From: a virus
Reading direction: 5' to 3' (one strand)
Virus record (IMG/VR): IMGVR_UViG_3300020472_000164
Location: 1 to 23,986 of that record
Length of the DNA: 23,986 bases
This document shows positions 2,481 to 19,611 of this stretch, in pieces (the first letter of the stretch is position 1; each line of letters opens with the position of its first letter). Both the position numbers and the translations under genes were made by a program. The notes below the pieces were generated by a model that had not been told where the DNA came from, made no database searches, and was given only the letters and a program-made list of their open reading frames with translations.

Positions 2481-3389
2481 TTATCCCGCCGCGGATGTCG
2501 GCGTCATCTGCACGGCGTGCCAGGGGATCGTGTACGTGGAGATCCACCCACCCGCAAAGGCCATGCGTGCAGTAAAGCCCCCCGTCGTGACGTTGACGGC
2601 GGCGGCCGAGAGCGTCGATCCCGACGTATTGGCTTGAGTGCCAACGAGCACGAGCGGGGGCTGCGTGAACCGGCCGGCGGGGAAGGAGACCGCGACGTCG
2701 AGATAGTTCGCGCCGCCCGAGCTGCCGAAGGTAACCGAGCCGGCGGCTTCGGCGAAGGTCTGCATCGCCCACGCGCTGCCGGTCCACTCGTAGAGGTTGC
2801 CGCCGATAACATAGGCGACCTGACCGGAGGTGGCCGATGTCCACGCGGTGAGCTCGGCGAGCGTGCGGAAGGGTACGACGCCGCCACGCATCGCGGTCAT
2901 CTGATACGTCTCGGTGAGGACGTTCGATCCGCCGTTCGCGGCCGATGTCCCGGCGTAAACGCGAAGCGTGCCGAGCTCAAGAGCGCCGGTCGGGATGGCG
3001 GGCTTCGTCGGCGTCGCCGCGGCCGTGCCGTCCGTCGTGCCGAACGTTGGAAGCGCGTCCCCGTCTCCGGTCGTGTCGTCGTTATGCTTCACCCAGATCA
3101 CGGTGATGCGCGAGTTCGACGCGGGCGCCGCCGCGATCGGAACGTTCACCGTCCCGTCGTTCGTGAAAATCGACACGCCGTCCGCCTTACCCTTCGACGT
3201 GACGAATTCGGCCGCCGCGACGGCAACGTTCATCGTCGCGAGGGCGGTGAGGAGCCCCGACGCGGGGCCGAGCACGCCGACGCGAGGCGAACCGTCCACG
3301 TTCGCGACGACCTTCGCCATGTCGGCGCGACGGCCGTCGAGAGGGACAGGGGCGGCGTTCTGGATCGGGACCGCCTTTGTGAGTGTCAT
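2481..3389 (-). CDS. Minor tail protein with C-terminal lectin-like domain (302 aa)
   Basis: The start is ATG at 3387-3389, with GAGG about nine bases upstream. The N-terminal two thirds has the pattern of a common actinophage minor tail protein, with SKGKADGVSIFTNDGTVNV at about residues 85-103 and RITVIWVKHNDDTTGDGD soon after. The last roughly 80 residues (from about 222) have the spacing VSFPAGRFTQPPLVLVG ... VNVTTGGFTARM ... IPWHAVQM, which resembles the H-type lectin-like fold used by several phage receptor-binding proteins. I infer that it binds a cell-surface carbohydrate at the tail tip. The lectin call is by eye and should be treated as tentative. Confidence 0.75.
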   Translation of the reverse strand: MTLTKAVPIQNAAPVPLDGRRADMAKVVANVDGSPRVGVLGPASGLLTALATMNVAVAAAEFVTSKGKADGVSIFTNDGTVNVPIAAAPASNSRITVIWVKHNDDTTGDGDALPTFGTTDGTAAATPTKPAIPTGALELGTLRVYAGTSAANGGSNVLTETYQMTAMRGGVVPFRTLAELTAWTSATSGQVAYVIGGNLYEWTGSAWAMQTFAEAAGSVTFGSSGGANYLDVAVSFPAGRFTQPPLVLVGTQANTSGSTLSAAAVNVTTGGFTARMAFAGGWISTYTIPWHAVQMTPTSAAG

Positions 3390-6079: not shown

Positions 6080-6088
6080 GCGTTCACC

Positions 6089-6714
6089 CTACTCGCGCGA
6101 CAGCCAGCCATCGCGCTCAAGCTCGGCCAGCGCGTCGCTTGCCGAGGCGGCGTCCGCGACGCGCTTCGCTTCTTCGCGTTCGCGGGCGATCTCCTCGAAG
6201 AGGCGCGCACGCATCGCGCCGGGATAGGCATGTAGGCGACGAGCGAGAGAGAAGAAAGTGACGGAGTCGAGCGCTCGCCAATCAGCAACGCCGTGGAGCG
6301 CCGAGAGGTCGCTCGTGACGTCGTCGTGATAGTCGAGTATCCAGTCAATTTCCGCTCTCCGCTCTTCGATCAGCCTTTTGGGGCCGAGAGTCCCCCGAGC
6401 ACCACGTCGCGGCACTTCATCATGATCGGCAGAAGCGCGTCGCCCGCATCGGGCTCGGCGGCGAGCGCCATGTACCCCGCCTCCCCGATCGCCTCTTCGA
6501 GGAGCCACGACATCGCGATCTCCGTGCCGTGAAGGCGTGCCTGGCGCAGGAAAGCCAAAGCGAGACCGGCGTGCGGCTTAGCCGGCATCGTGTACTCGAT
6601 CGCCTCCTCGTCGCCGCGCTCGATCGAGAAGAGCACGACGCGCTCGGGCGCGTCGTCCCAGTCGTCATGCTTGATGACGGGCGGGACGTACAGTGCAGAA
6701 GCCTTTTCGGTCAT
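6089..6714 (-). CDS. Tail assembly chaperone, -1 frameshift fusion (GT, 208 aa)
   Basis: Reading the zero frame from 6714 to the AAA codon at 6378-6376 and then slipping back one base joins to a second open frame ending at 6089. The product has 113 residues of G followed by 95 residues starting RLIEERRAEIDW. The second part is highly charged and helical (LARRLHAYPGAMRARLFEEIAREREEAKRVADA), typical of the T domain that contacts the tube subunit. The base at 6376 is read twice. The downstream frame has no start codon of its own near the junction with a ribosome site, which supports frameshifting rather than a separate gene. Its end lies nine bases before the tape measure ATG. Confidence 0.85.
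6370..6714 (-). CDS. Tail assembly chaperone, zero-frame product (G, 114 aa)
   Basis: This is the shorter product of the tail chaperone pair located between the tail tube gene and the tape measure gene. It starts at ATG 6712-6714 and stops at TGA just after the slippery site, ending SAPKG. The protein is acidic and helical with no membrane segment. In lambda the equivalent protein gpG coats the tape measure and recruits tail tube subunits; the same role is inferred here. No close sequence motif identifies it. The call depends on position, size and the frameshift signal. Confidence 0.85.
   Translation of the reverse strand: MTEKASALYVPPVIKHDDWDDAPERVVLFSIERGDEEAIEYTMPAKPHAGLALAFLRQARLHGTEIAMSWLLEEAIGEAGYMALAAEPDAGDALLPIMMKCRDVVLGGLSAPKG
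6376..6382 (-). promoter_or_regulatory. Programmed -1 ribosomal frameshift site
   Basis: On the coding strand the heptamer is CCCAAAA, read C CCA AAA in the zero frame and CCC AAA after the slip. It is a perfect X XXY YYZ heptamer, and both tRNAs can re-pair. The zero-frame stop follows two codons later. I did not identify a clear downstream pseudoknot. Confidence 0.85.
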
Positions 6715-6792: not shown

Positions 6793-7335
6793 TCACGCTT
6801 CGGTCTCGTCTTCGATCTTGAGAGCCTTGATCGACGCGCTGACCCAGTGCAGGGCGAACGTGACGGGAATGACCGTCTGACCGTCCTTCGTGTACGCCAT
6901 GGCGATGTTGCCGGTCTGCAACGTCTTGCGCAGGATGATCCGGCGACGGAGGCCGCCCGGGGCGAGGCCGTCGAGAAGCACGGCGCCGTAGTCGGGCGAG
7001 AAGGCGCTCTCGTCGTTGTCGAGCTCGACGACGTCGCTCGTCGGCGCGGTGTTGTTCATCGCGCGCGCCAGGTTCTCAAGCGTCGGCTCAGCGAGCGAGG
7101 TGGCGACGTTGATGCTGCGCCCCGTGCGCTTGCGCCCGACGACGTCGATGATCTGATCGACGGTGAGGTCGGCGAAGGTCTGCTCGATGTTGAGCGTGAC
7201 GCCCTCCTTCGTGCCGCCGAGGTCGGTCCACCCGACGCCGGGAGCAGTGTCGATGTCGGCGGGCTCGGTCGCCCCGAAGGCGCCCGCGTAGATCGTCGCC
7301 GGCCCCTGGATGAGGTTGGTAGCGGTGACGGTCAT
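6793..7335 (-). CDS. Major tail tube protein (180 aa)
   Basis: The ATG at 7333-7335 is preceded by AAGGAGGG at a good distance, placed inside the end of the previous gene, and indicates strong translation. The protein forms the hexameric rings of the tail tube. It is beta-rich, with a start like other actinophage tube proteins (NLIQGPATIYAGAFGATEP), a motif near residue 40 (WTDLGGTKEGVTLNIEQTF), and a long loop/helix region (RSINVATSLAEPTLENLARAMN at about 73-94). The length fits a tube protein without an added Ig-like domain. It is followed by a strong hairpin and then the chaperone pair, the standard order. Confidence 0.85.
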   Translation of the reverse strand: MTVTATNLIQGPATIYAGAFGATEPADIDTAPGVGWTDLGGTKEGVTLNIEQTFADLTVDQIIDVVGRKRTGRSINVATSLAEPTLENLARAMNNTAPTSDVVELDNDESAFSPDYGAVLLDGLAPGGLRRRIILRKTLQTGNIAMAYTKDGQTVIPVTFALHWVSASIKALKIEDETEA

Positions 7336-7338
7336 GCG

Positions 7339-7476
7339 TCAGCCCTCCTTCTTCTCGGTCGTCTTCTTCTCGTCCTTCGCCAGGAGCCCCTGGCGCTTAA
7401 GGTCGAGGAGTTCGGCGTCGTTGACCGTGAGCACCTTGTCGGGCTCGATGGTCGTCCGTACCTTGTGCGTTGCCAC
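7339..7476 (-). CDS. Small protein with a repeat module shared with the tailspike (45 aa)
   Basis: The chosen start is GTG at 7474-7476, because GGAAGGAAGG lies about seven bases upstream; no other start in this frame has as good a site. Residues 5-31 (VRTTIEPDKVLTVNDAEL and onward to RQGLL) match, at roughly half the positions, residues 46-72 of the tailspike gene, and a second, weaker tailspike copy. The C-terminus is a Lys/Glu-rich tail. Small proteins with a V.V.D.E...L...GL pattern are common in phage head-tail regions, but their role is not established. It may be a virion component or a connector accessory. Confidence 0.7.
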   Translation of the reverse strand: MATHKVRTTIEPDKVLTVNDAELLDLKRQGLLAKDEKKTTEKKEG

Positions 7477-15150: not shown

Positions 15151-15156
15151 ATCCTA
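15151..15156 (-). promoter_or_regulatory. TAGGAT -10-like element before portal
   Basis: TAGGAT ends six bases before the portal ATG on the transcribed strand. Same spacing as four other leftward starts. The AGGA part could instead serve as a ribosome binding site at a normal distance, so this copy is ambiguous. Confidence 0.4.
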
Positions 15157-15236: not shown

Positions 15237-15245
15237 GCTAGTAAG
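15237..15245. promoter_or_regulatory. CTAnTAG-like site, site 3
   Basis: GCTAGTAAG is a seven-of-nine copy of the palindrome, 13 bases from site 2. It contains the TAG stop codon of the tailspike gene, so part of the match may come from coding needs. Confidence 0.25.
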
Positions 15246-17085
15246 GGGCGGCGTCCCACTCCAACCCATCGAGGTGAACAATCGTGTTACCACCTGTTCC
15301 CGGCGTGAAGTTCCCGACTGCCGTGGTTGTGACGATGCAAACCGACGCTGTGCCGCCAGTGCCCGCGGCGTTCTGTCGGCATTGCACAGAAGGGCGAGCC
15401 CATTCGGGGAGCACGGCAAACCGCTGACCCGCGACCACCCCACTCGGAGCTGAAACCGCACCCCTCACTTTGACTTTCCTCCCCTCACGGCGGACCTGCG
15501 GCGGGCGGAAGCCTGCCGCCGCGCTGTACGGTGAATCGAGCGTGATGTCGGTCCACCCGTCCACGTCGGGGCCATGTACGTTGAGTGTGCCTCGGGCGTC
15601 GGGAAGTCGCACTCGCGCGACGTTTGCGTCCATGGACATGACGTAGATATCAATGCCCGGTGAGGTGTAGGCGTCGCCGGGGTTCGTGTCATAGACCGCC
15701 CCCTCGGTCGTCGTGACGAGCCCCACACCGTCCTCGATGAAGAGCCCGTAATCCTCGGTTGTGCGATGCGGGTCGATAGAGGCGTTCGCGACTTCGGTAA
15801 CCTTGTTCATGTCGCCGCCAACGAGGAACTCTCCGCGGAAGCGGTCGTTGATTCCGTAGGACTGTTCGTCGGTGCTGTCGACGTAGATGTCGGCGTATCC
15901 GAGGCCGGGTGTGATCGAACCGTCCGCAGCGTTGAATGCCAGCTGACCATTGTTCATCGCCTGAGCCTGCACGTATCCGGTGATGAACTGGTCGAACCAG
16001 ATTCCGTGGGAGCCGTTGAACGATGCGACGAGGCCGACGTGGTTGTGGCGTTGCACGTTGTTGAACTCGACACCGATGCCGCCATTCCACTTCGCAACGA
16101 CATTGACGGTGTGGCACTCGGACTGATCCGACCACCATCCCCTCCCGCCGTTGTGATGCAGGTAGACGTTGGTGAGGAAAATCTGCCGATTGCGCTTCGA
16201 GGCCACGAGACCGTCTCCGACGCAATCGTGAATCTCAACGTTCGTGATGTGCGACGGTCGGGTGAACACGCCGTCCTCACCCATGAGCGTCATGCCATTG
16301 GCGCGACCGTTCTTGATGATGACGTTGTCCATGCGGAACTGGTCGCCGACCCACGCTCGAACGAGCGCTGTCGTGCCACCTGTGACCGCTTGCCCCACCT
16401 TGTTCCCGTCGATTGTGAGGTCGCGAATTCCCGCGCGCGGGGTCGGGGTGTTCTCCACACCGTCGTGCTCCAGGTTGATCTGCTGCATCGGGTTCGTGTT
16501 ATCCGGCACCCGAAGCGTCGTCGAAGAGACACCATCACCGACAATCTCCACGTTGCCTGGGATGAACACACGATCGTCGAGGCAGTTGAACACGCCACGG
16601 CCGAGGCGAAGCGACCCACCGCCGAGCGCGCTGAGGGCGTCCATCGTGGACTGCAACACCGCCGCGCTGGTCATGAACGAAGGCCCGAAGTAGGCGATCG
16701 CGGTAGCCGCAATAGTGGCGCTTAGTTGGTCCGGGAAGCTCGTCGAACCGTCTGCGCCGAGCATCTTCCCGAGGCGACGGGAGAGCACGCTCTCGGGGTC
16801 TTCGGCTTCCTCGTACTGCGCATCGGTGAAGTGAGGCCGCGGGATCGGGTCGCCGCCCTCGACGGCGTAGACGAGGTTCTGTCGGAGGAGATCGTAATAC
16901 TCGCTGAGCGTGACGGTGATAACCTCATCGGGCTCCTGAACCGTGCGAATGTTGATCGTCTGTTCGGCCACGCCCTCAATCCCCTCACCGGTATAGAGCA
17001 ACCCTGCCGCTTCGAGATAGCGGTACTCGCCGTCCGAGACTTCGAGCCAGACGCCGGGCTGCATGGTCGTCTGTACGAGCGGCAT
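15238..17085 (-). CDS. Tailspike/fibre with beta-helix (615 aa)
   Basis: The ATG at 17083-17085 is preferred; a GTG six codons upstream is also possible. The N-terminus carries two tandem copies of a small module (residues about 3-35 and 43-76) related to the 45-residue protein coded at 7339-7476. Residues about 125-480 read like a pectate-lyase type right-handed beta-helix, with GGGSLRLGRGVFNCLDDRVFIPGNVEIVGDG and repeated N/H/G turns (NVEIHDCVGDGLVAS, NVYLHHNGGRGW, NVVAKWNGGIGV, GLVASFNGSHGI). The end (from about 530) is a beta domain with RREGRKVKVRGAVSAP and FAVLPEWARPSV, like receptor-binding tip domains of actinophages. It may bind and cut a surface polysaccharide. The location between terminase and portal is unusual. 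Confidence 0.8.
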   Translation of the reverse strand: MPLVQTTMQPGVWLEVSDGEYRYLEAAGLLYTGEGIEGVAEQTINIRTVQEPDEVITVTLSEYYDLLRQNLVYAVEGGDPIPRPHFTDAQYEEAEDPESVLSRRLGKMLGADGSTSFPDQLSATIAATAIAYFGPSFMTSAAVLQSTMDALSALGGGSLRLGRGVFNCLDDRVFIPGNVEIVGDGVSSTTLRVPDNTNPMQQINLEHDGVENTPTPRAGIRDLTIDGNKVGQAVTGGTTALVRAWVGDQFRMDNVIIKNGRANGMTLMGEDGVFTRPSHITNVEIHDCVGDGLVASKRNRQIFLTNVYLHHNGGRGWWSDQSECHTVNVVAKWNGGIGVEFNNVQRHNHVGLVASFNGSHGIWFDQFITGYVQAQAMNNGQLAFNAADGSITPGLGYADIYVDSTDEQSYGINDRFRGEFLVGGDMNKVTEVANASIDPHRTTEDYGLFIEDGVGLVTTTEGAVYDTNPGDAYTSPGIDIYVMSMDANVARVRLPDARGTLNVHGPDVDGWTDITLDSPYSAAAGFRPPQVRREGRKVKVRGAVSAPSGVVAGQRFAVLPEWARPSVQCRQNAAGTGGTASVCIVTTTAVGNFTPGTGGNTIVHLDGLEWDAAPY

Positions 17086-17091
17086 GGCGGC

Positions 17092-17097
17092 ATCGTA
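17092..17097 (-). promoter_or_regulatory. TACGAT -10-like element before tailspike
   Basis: TACGAT ends exactly six bases before the tailspike ATG on the transcribed strand; no ribosome site is present. The palindrome site 4 lies ten bases upstream. Confidence 0.45.
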
Positions 17098-17107
17098 CCG
17101 CACCGCG

Positions 17108-17116
17108 GCTAGTACG
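17108..17116. promoter_or_regulatory. CTAnTAG-like site, site 4
   Basis: GCTAGTACG is a seven-of-nine copy. It includes the TAG stop of the large terminase (TAC TAG), so some of the match is constrained by coding. It sits ten bases upstream of the -10-like element of the tailspike gene. Confidence 0.25.
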
Positions 17117-18662
17117 CCACGGACTCGGCGCCCGCGCGCGCCCGCTTCCCGCGCGACAAGAAGTAGCGCACGCCGGCGCCGACGGCGTCGACCCGGTCAT
17201 CGTGCGGCGCGCGCGGGAAGGCGACCATCTCGCCCTCAGCGTCGCGCACGCCGGGCGCGTTCCGCACGTGAGCGACGCGCCCGCGCTGATAGTGGTCGAG
17301 CGCGTCGGCGGCGCGAACCTGTTTCGGTGCACTCACCGTGTACGTCTTCACGCGGAACGGCAGGCCGTGGAGAATACGCGACCAGAGCTCGCCGCCTTGA
17401 TTCGTCTCGACGATGACGAGCACCGCGTGCCCGCGCGCGAGAGCACGCTCGGCGGACGCGAGCACCTTGAGTCGCACGTCATCGGGCGGGAGGCGCAGCG
17501 CCGTTGCCTCATAGACGACGCACTTGCCGGCCTCGCGCGACCAGCCGACCGCGGCGATAGCGGTCGCGTCGCTCGACTCCTTGCTCGTCACGGCCGGGTC
17601 GACGGAGATCACTTCGTGCGTGATGAGCGGGAGAAGCGGTGCGGCGGGCAGGCGCTCGAAGTCGTCTATCTGCCAGTAGTCACCGTCCGCGCCAAGCGGG
17701 TCGTTGGCGTAGTTCTTCGCGTACTGGCGCGTTCGTTCGATCGACTCAAGGAATGCGAGCGGCCACTTTTCGGGCCAGACCGAGCGGCGCATGCCGCCAT
17801 CGTCAACGACGATCGGGAGATGATGCCGTGCGACGATGCGCTCGACGAGTACCCAGCGGTTACCCTCGTCGCCTTCGCCCTCGTCGACCTCGCCACGGTT
17901 CGCCTTCACGATCTGGTGGACGATCGAGCCCTGCATCGTGACGGTGCCGACGAGAATGACGTGCGCGTAGATGTTCAGTGGGAGGATCGCTTCGCGCAGC
18001 GTGGCGAGACGCTTGCGCGCGAGCTCGGCCGAGTAGCGCGCCTCGTGCGGCTCGATGTCGTCGAGGATGATGAGGTCGGGGCGACGATCGCCGACCTTCA
18101 TGCCGAGGTTGGAGGAGTCCATGCCGGCCGCCGCGAAGACGAAGCCCGAGCGCGCGTGATAGAGCGAGACGCGGTCGGCCATGACGGTCCCGCGTCCGCG
18201 CGTCTTCGGCTCAACGAGATCGGGGAAGTCGGAGCGGATGAGCGCGTTCGTGTCGAGCTCGGCTTTGAATGTGGCGAGGTGCGTCTGTGCCTGCGTATCG
18301 GTGTCGGCGAACGCCGCCGCGAAGCGGACGTGACCGTGCGCCGCGGCCCACATCGGCAAGAGGAGGAACCACCACGTGCTCTTCCCCATCTCGCGCGGCG
18401 CCACCTCGGCGCGTCGCGAGGTCATCGGTTCGACCTGCGACGCGCGCCACGCTTTCGCTGTCTCGGCCCATTCCACGTGCACGGCGCTGAGCGAGCGTGT
18501 GCCGTCTGGCGCGGTCAAATGGCGACGGAGGTACAGGAGCGCGAAGAGGAGCGGATCGTCGCGCGTGACGCGGCGACGGTACTCGGAGCGCTCAGCGGGC
18601 GTCGAAAGCTTCGCGAGGCGTTCGAGGTGCGGGCGCACGAGCGCCGCAGGATCGAGCGTCAC
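17109..18662 (-). CDS. terL: Terminase large subunit (517 aa)
   Basis: It begins with GTG overlapping the preceding stop as GTGA (18659-18662). The motor packages DNA into the capsid and cuts it. The ATPase half shows a Walker A-like loop APREMGKST at residues 88-96 and a Walker B strand DLIILDDIE at 196-204, with a coupling motif VGTVT near 248. The RNase H-like nuclease half shows ISVDPAVTSKESSDATAIA (D355), LVIVETNQGG (E419) and HDDRVDAV (D488, D492). The length is usual. The Walker A region is slightly unusual (Arg-Glu-Met before GKS) but is seen in other terminases. It is coupled to the Cys-rich gene upstream. Confidence 0.93.
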   Translation of the reverse strand: MTLDPAALVRPHLERLAKLSTPAERSEYRRRVTRDDPLLFALLYLRRHLTAPDGTRSLSAVHVEWAETAKAWRASQVEPMTSRRAEVAPREMGKSTWWFLLLPMWAAAHGHVRFAAAFADTDTQAQTHLATFKAELDTNALIRSDFPDLVEPKTRGRGTVMADRVSLYHARSGFVFAAAGMDSSNLGMKVGDRRPDLIILDDIEPHEARYSAELARKRLATLREAILPLNIYAHVILVGTVTMQGSIVHQIVKANRGEVDEGEGDEGNRWVLVERIVARHHLPIVVDDGGMRRSVWPEKWPLAFLESIERTRQYAKNYANDPLGADGDYWQIDDFERLPAAPLLPLITHEVISVDPAVTSKESSDATAIAAVGWSREAGKCVVYEATALRLPPDDVRLKVLASAERALARGHAVLVIVETNQGGELWSRILHGLPFRVKTYTVSAPKQVRAADALDHYQRGRVAHVRNAPGVRDAEGEMVAFPRAPHDDRVDAVGAGVRYFLSRGKRARAGAESVAY

Positions 18663-19605: not shown

Positions 19606-19611
19606 ATCCTA
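19606..19611 (-). promoter_or_regulatory. TAGGAT -10-like element before the small terminase
   Basis: TAGGAT ends six bases before the ATG on the transcribed strand and overlaps the TAG stop of the gene before. TTGACG lies 20 bases further upstream, too far for a normal -35 spacing. AGGA may alternatively be a ribosome site. Confidence 0.4.

Follow-up and report, generated by a model that had tools for sequence, protein, structure and literature searches.

The spike encoded between the large terminase subunit and portal genes of the window (23,986 bases, the whole of an IMG/VR record and possibly a genome fragment) starts with two diverged copies of a module that is also found as a small stand-alone protein, encoded in most cases directly upstream of one family of major tail protein genes. 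The N-terminal repeat is real, and the spike is a module-containing protein that stands outside the stand-alone family. Its N-terminus would be a rare form of a known sort of docking region, made from a module family that has no name in the libraries searched. Judging from the sequences, we favor the reading that the module docks the spike to the virion, most probably at the tail-tube or neck position used by the stand-alone protein.

The window carries a siphophage structural cassette, in which some of the genes were named by synteny with the Microbacterium phage OscarSo. The closest annotated relatives, OscarSo, Wyvern and Isperia, all share this gene order. In the tail-tip region, a 302-residue gene (2484-3389) matches PHROG 3398, a virion structural protein, with an E-value of 2.8e-38, and is a possible second adhesin. 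The large terminase subunit (17112-18662) is 38-43% related to those of the Streptomyces satellites MiniFlayer and MulchRoom. Because of this kinship, attachment to the neck of a helper phage in the manner of MiniFlayer was considered; it was set aside, since no module precedes the tail protein of that helper.

Table 1. Positions of the spike, its module copies and related features in the window
Feature	Position	Strand	Remarks
Structural cassette		-	terminase small and large subunits, spike, portal, scaffold, capsid, connectors
Structural cassette, continued		-	45-aa gene, major tail protein, chaperone, tape measure, distal tail, minor tail genes
Spike gene	15238..17085	-	ATG at 17085, stop ends at 15238; 615 aa; between terminase large subunit and portal
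Module copy 1, aa 1-35	16981..17085	-	profile match; E-E-H in full-length model
Module copy 2, aa 43-78	16852..16959	-	profile match; predicted β-β-α-β
Linker	16756..16851	-	stretch FTDAQYEE and helix 97-109; in alignment resembles a stretch of OscarSo gp8 (FSPEQYAE)
Stand-alone module protein	7339..7476	-	GTG start; 45 aa; 3 nt before major tail protein gene
Major tail (tube) protein gene	6793..7335	-	PF25681, E 2.1e-4 (below cut-off); PHROG major tail protein, E 9.1e-7
TACGAT hexamer	17092..17097	-	6 nt before spike ATG
TANNNT hexamer	19606-19611	-	6 nt before ATG of TerS
TANNNT hexamer	15151-15156	-	6 nt before ATG of portal
TANNNT hexamer	6086-6091	-	6 nt before ATG of tape measure

Two module copies ahead of a β-helix body

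An earlier note on this DNA had described residues 3-35 and 43-76 of the spike as diverged copies of each other, and the present analysis agrees: the positions it gave (17079-16858) and the two peptides it quoted are correct. An ungapped alignment of residues 4-35 with 46-77 has 10 of 32 positions identical (31%) and a BLOSUM62 score of 40, which is reached by 4.5 in 10,000 shuffles. Moreover, a profile that represented stand-alone relatives only, neither the spike nor OscarSo gp8 being included, was searched against 10,211 ORFs and found exactly two domains in the spike, copy 1 (MPLVQTTMQPGVWLEVSDGEYRYLEAAGLLYT; 26.0 bits, i-E 2.5e-6) and copy 2 (IRTVQEPDEVITVTLSEYYDLLRQNLVYAVE; 32.3 bits, i-E 2.5e-8). 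Both matches run across the whole module and lie above shuffled sequence, the top score among 20,000 shuffles of residues 1-85 being 11.1 bits. As this profile was made without the spike, the repeat does not depend on the comparison of one copy with the other. Seven residues are invariant in the stand-alone family (T7, P11, V17, E21, D24, L25 and R27, in the numbering of A4). Copy 2 keeps them all; copy 1 has a tyrosine in place of D24 and an alanine in place of R27, and has also lost a nearly invariant arginine at position 6.

AlphaFold2 predicted copy 2 as strand-strand-helix-strand with a pLDDT of 93-97, from an input alignment with rows over copy 2 only and none over copy 1. In the full-length model, copy 1 adopts a strand-strand-helix arrangement at a pLDDT of 66-80, whereas in the model of a 121-residue fragment its pLDDT is below 60 and a strand takes the expected place of the helix. 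The helix 97-109 in the linker is present in both models. The earlier note would have given up the repeat had the predicted N-terminus lacked repeat symmetry; no such structure was obtained, but the support for copy 1 is moderate, its helix being missing from the fragment model.

Structural similarity search revealed that copy 2 is closest, among solved folds, to the N-domain of ribosomal protein bL9, with an RMSD of 1.6 Å over 39 residues and a Z-score of 2.9, which is low on account of the small size of the domain. Several of the nine structure matches are ribosomal chains, which we take to be of the bL9 type from their chain letters. Copy 2 and bL9 share the same β-β-α-β fold and no sequence relation, so that copy 2 resembles the bL9 N-domain in fold only. 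Nucleic-acid binding by analogy with bL9 was set aside because of the acidic character of the spike copies (5-6 D/E vs 1-2 K/R), and no claim of RNA binding is made. Against predicted viral structures, the top match of copy 2 is the stand-alone protein from KimJongPhill, and the matches include a DUF7210 protein as well. A Foldseek search of the N-terminal model against the PDB gave nothing below an E-value of 0.001; RbpA, which appeared in it with an RMSD above 10 Å, was taken as a chance match.

The body of the spike is a right-handed parallel β-helix, as in β-helix tailspikes, according to a low-confidence model (pLDDT mostly below 60) that superposes with a Z-score of 10.3 and an RMSD of 4.0 Å over 217 residues. 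It matches chains of phage tail fibers and tailspikes (Z about 9-10, about 4 Å), in addition to β-helices of the pectate-lyase type. The Pfam Beta_helix match of the spike (E 0.0013) is below the family cut-off, and its C-terminal part matches PHROG minor tail and receptor-binding tail proteins (E 4.5e-5 and 1.6e-3). Searching phage records by tblastn with the full-length spike gave no match, and no relative was found in viral contigs with either the spike or its N-terminus.

A stand-alone module protein linked to the tail-tube gene

The stand-alone protein mentioned in the earlier note was confirmed in the same genome by a profile match of a short gene, the GTG of which is preceded by a GGAAGG motif. 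Pattern scans of viral contigs, together with tblastn of phage records, yielded about 47 further module genes. The stand-alone proteins share one architecture, in which the module makes up the folded N-terminal part and the remainder is a hydrophilic tail of variable sequence. For 48 module ORFs the downstream sequence exceeds 150 bases, and in 46 of these the next gene encodes a relative of the window's major tail protein, mostly within about 30 nt. The two exceptions are the spike and OscarSo gp8, both located between the terminase and portal genes. The stand-alone gene of the window adjoins the major tail protein gene in this way, and the spike gene does not. One more, divergent, relative of the tail protein follows the module ORF of L047.

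All five annotated phage kinds whose tail protein is more than 40% identical to that of the window have a stand-alone gene upstream of it, namely OscarSo gp22, Wyvern gp20, Isperia gp18, Zuko gp18 and KimJongPhill gp21, and in Zuko and KimJongPhill it occupies the same place as in the window. These proteins possess the same module as the spike, but in one copy with a hydrophilic tail and without the spike body. The differences between module genes number 2136, 1384 and 3376 at codon positions 1, 2 and 3, respectively, a distribution that fits protein-level selection. More distant tail tube proteins (28% identical), for example that of MindFlayer, have no module upstream, and the gene upstream of the tail protein in Yara is unrelated to the module.

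No member of the module family matches Pfam, PHROG or NCBIfam above threshold. A few stand-alone proteins and OscarSo gp8 give weak profile matches to DUF7302 and DUF7210, all below the curated cut-offs (best scores 18.8 vs 24.9 bits and 12.9 vs 27 bits, respectively), and the spike itself matches neither; the likeness of the module to these families thus consists of sub-threshold matches and the structural match to a DUF7210 protein. Comparison of the family with PDB sequences gave nothing below an E-value of 1, and the module patterns were not found in bacterial and archaeal genomes. The final codons of the stand-alone gene (AAG AAG GAG GGC, encoding KKEG; 7342-7353) resemble the ribosome-binding site of the major tail gene, and KKEG-like endings recur across the stand-alone family. 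Since such codons can also provide the ribosome-binding site for the gene that follows, the lysine/glutamate-rich C-terminus was set aside as a binding motif.

The terminase-portal slot and proposed docking of the spike

The interval between the terminase and portal genes is an accessory slot for fibers, and extra genes at this place are known from Microbacterium phages (PMC7302621). In relatives of the window phage it is empty or holds accessory genes, some of them of fiber types: L028 has a phage-tail-repeat protein there, L031 one with collagen repeats, and OscarSo gp8 and gp9. OscarSo gp8 (105 aa) resembles the spike in having a copy-1-like module and a similar linker; however, it has one copy and is separate from the fiber-like gp9, which is annotated as a minor tail protein. 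Proteins of the slot share ends in differing combinations, as gp8 and gp9 have a terminal motif in common (WI.T...GDPDAI.LYFEDG; L003 4137-5968). A module in the slot is rare, with one doubled case, the spike, and one single case, OscarSo gp8. The slot fibers of L028 (4613-6412) and L031 (5109-6314) are devoid of it and have another N-terminus in common (MPILTVDIAHDAPTSNAS... and MPILTINTANDAPDSNAS...), which may be a docking domain of a different kind. The module is therefore not required in the slot; the L031 phage, on the same contig as L015, does carry a stand-alone protein.

The anchoring role that the earlier note had suggested for the N-terminus is the most economical reading, because nearly all module ORFs adjoin the major tail gene on its upstream side. 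The constant association of the stand-alone gene with a single tail-tube family makes that tail protein the most likely target of its product, which would contact the tail tube or the junction of tube and terminator. The spike has the same module, with all seven invariant residues in copy 2, and hence most likely sits at the site of the stand-alone protein. It would occupy this site through its own module copies, in imitation of the small protein, and the tail tube or neck, not the tail tip, would then carry the spike. Copy 2 is the probable binding copy, whereas copy 1, with two invariant residues lost, may act as a spacer, provide a second contact or cap the trimer. We thus propose, with somewhat less than even confidence, that the spike is an accessory receptor-binding β-helix protein docked via two tandem 35-residue β-β-α-β modules at the tail-tube site of the stand-alone protein. 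The notion of a receptor-binding spike along a siphophage tail tube or neck, attached by tandem domains that would imitate a conserved tail-tube companion, appears more doubtful.

Several observations argue for docking at this site: the two exceptions to the tail-gene linkage are proteins of the spike slot, OscarSo encodes the module separately in that slot beside the fiber-like gp9, and the other slot fillers are fibers with phage-tail or collagen repeats. In addition, the spike has a β-helix body with a C-terminus of the receptor-binding type, both copies are found by a profile made without the spike, and the fold of copy 2 is confident. The main counter-evidence is that the other slot fibers have no module. 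The lack of a module upstream of the distant tail tube proteins, and the low-confidence copy 1 of the fragment model with its strand in place of a helix, also weaken this reading.

The earlier note had further taken the doubled module as a hint of an unfamiliar anchoring mechanism, but doubling as such is not new, since several conserved assembly domains stand in tandem at the N-termini of Ackermannviridae tailspikes (TSP2 and TSP4 of CBA120/S117; PMC11414711). As in the spike, these tandem domains precede the receptor-binding part. Their gp10-like XD domains join four spikes in a branched complex; no sequence relation to the spike is claimed, and the XD fold is absent among the structure matches listed for the N-terminal model and copy 2, an absence that excludes nothing. 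Precedents for the proposed docking are the 936 lactococcal siphophages, which are reported to bear adhesion modules on their neck and major tail protein (PMC6669499), and the β-β-α segment that holds a trimeric fiber to the tail of mycobacteriophage Mysterious (PMC13252515). If the spike copies indeed dock at the site of the small protein, a function could be assigned to the whole stand-alone family of these actinobacterial phages, and a phage route to gaining an adhesin outside the tail tip would be revealed. The tight gene linkage makes the prediction on the small tail-tube-adjacent protein specific, and this prediction is the useful part.

It is possible, if rather unlikely, that the module anchors or organizes the spike elsewhere, at the tail tip, a Dit-like distal tail protein or the portal and neck, the fold being re-used for different partners. 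Mysterious is a precedent here too, as the β-β-α N-terminus of its gp40 docks the fiber on the distal tail protein; this segment, which resembles the module, has an acidic helix start (PMC13252515). Homology to the gp40 anchor was rejected on the sequence of phage Acadian, whose gene-40 protein, regarded as the counterpart from its same numbering and length (136 aa), gives no profile match. Acadian presumably belongs to the same cluster B5 as Mysterious. An anchor at another site also agrees with the different N-termini of the fibers in the same slot, and with the drift of the spike copies from the stand-alone consensus, copy 1 having lost two invariant residues and the position-6 arginine. 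However, copy 2 retains the complete invariant set, which a re-targeted domain need not do, and the spike gene is distant from the tail-tip genes.

Gene neighborhood is not proof of contact, and the stand-alone protein could be an assembly factor absent from the virion. That it is such a factor or a chaperone for the tail tube, with the spike copies forming an assembly or trimer-registration cap instead of an anchor, seems improbable to us. Its gene does directly precede the tail tube gene at a short distance, its small module with a variable hydrophilic tail would suit such a role, and the helix 97-109 follows the copies in the spike. Nevertheless, the spike would then need a separate anchor. 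The P22 spike attaches by its N-terminus. Attachment by the N-terminus is also the rule in well-studied spikes such as those of Ackermannviridae (PMC11414711).

Origin of the copies and promoter-like hexamers

The term tandem duplication, used in the earlier note, holds for the tandem repeat, but duplication as its origin is not established. The best score of copy 1 is against OscarSo gp8 (89; tree support for the grouping 87/83) and that of copy 2 against the stand-alone proteins (67-69), and the copy-to-copy score of 40 is below that of each copy against other family members. One-clade tests rejected no grouping. On these comparisons, gain of the second module from a stand-alone-type gene appears at least as likely as duplication, fitting the data no worse. 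That an intragenic duplication made both copies and left the second one neutral is very unlikely: the copies are head-to-tail in one gene and their grouping survives the one-clade test (p-AU 0.32), but they are only 31% identical, each scores higher against other family members than against its neighbor, and copy 2 keeps every invariant residue, unexpectedly for a neutral copy.

Hexamers of the pattern TANNNT lie six nucleotides before the ATG, often after a hairpin, in the spike gene and in genes of L028, L031 and L037. At this spacing, the pattern precedes 4 of the 18 gene starts in the window, compared to 6 of 780 NTG codons on the same strand (P about 1e-5), which suggests putative leaderless promoters inside the structural cassette.
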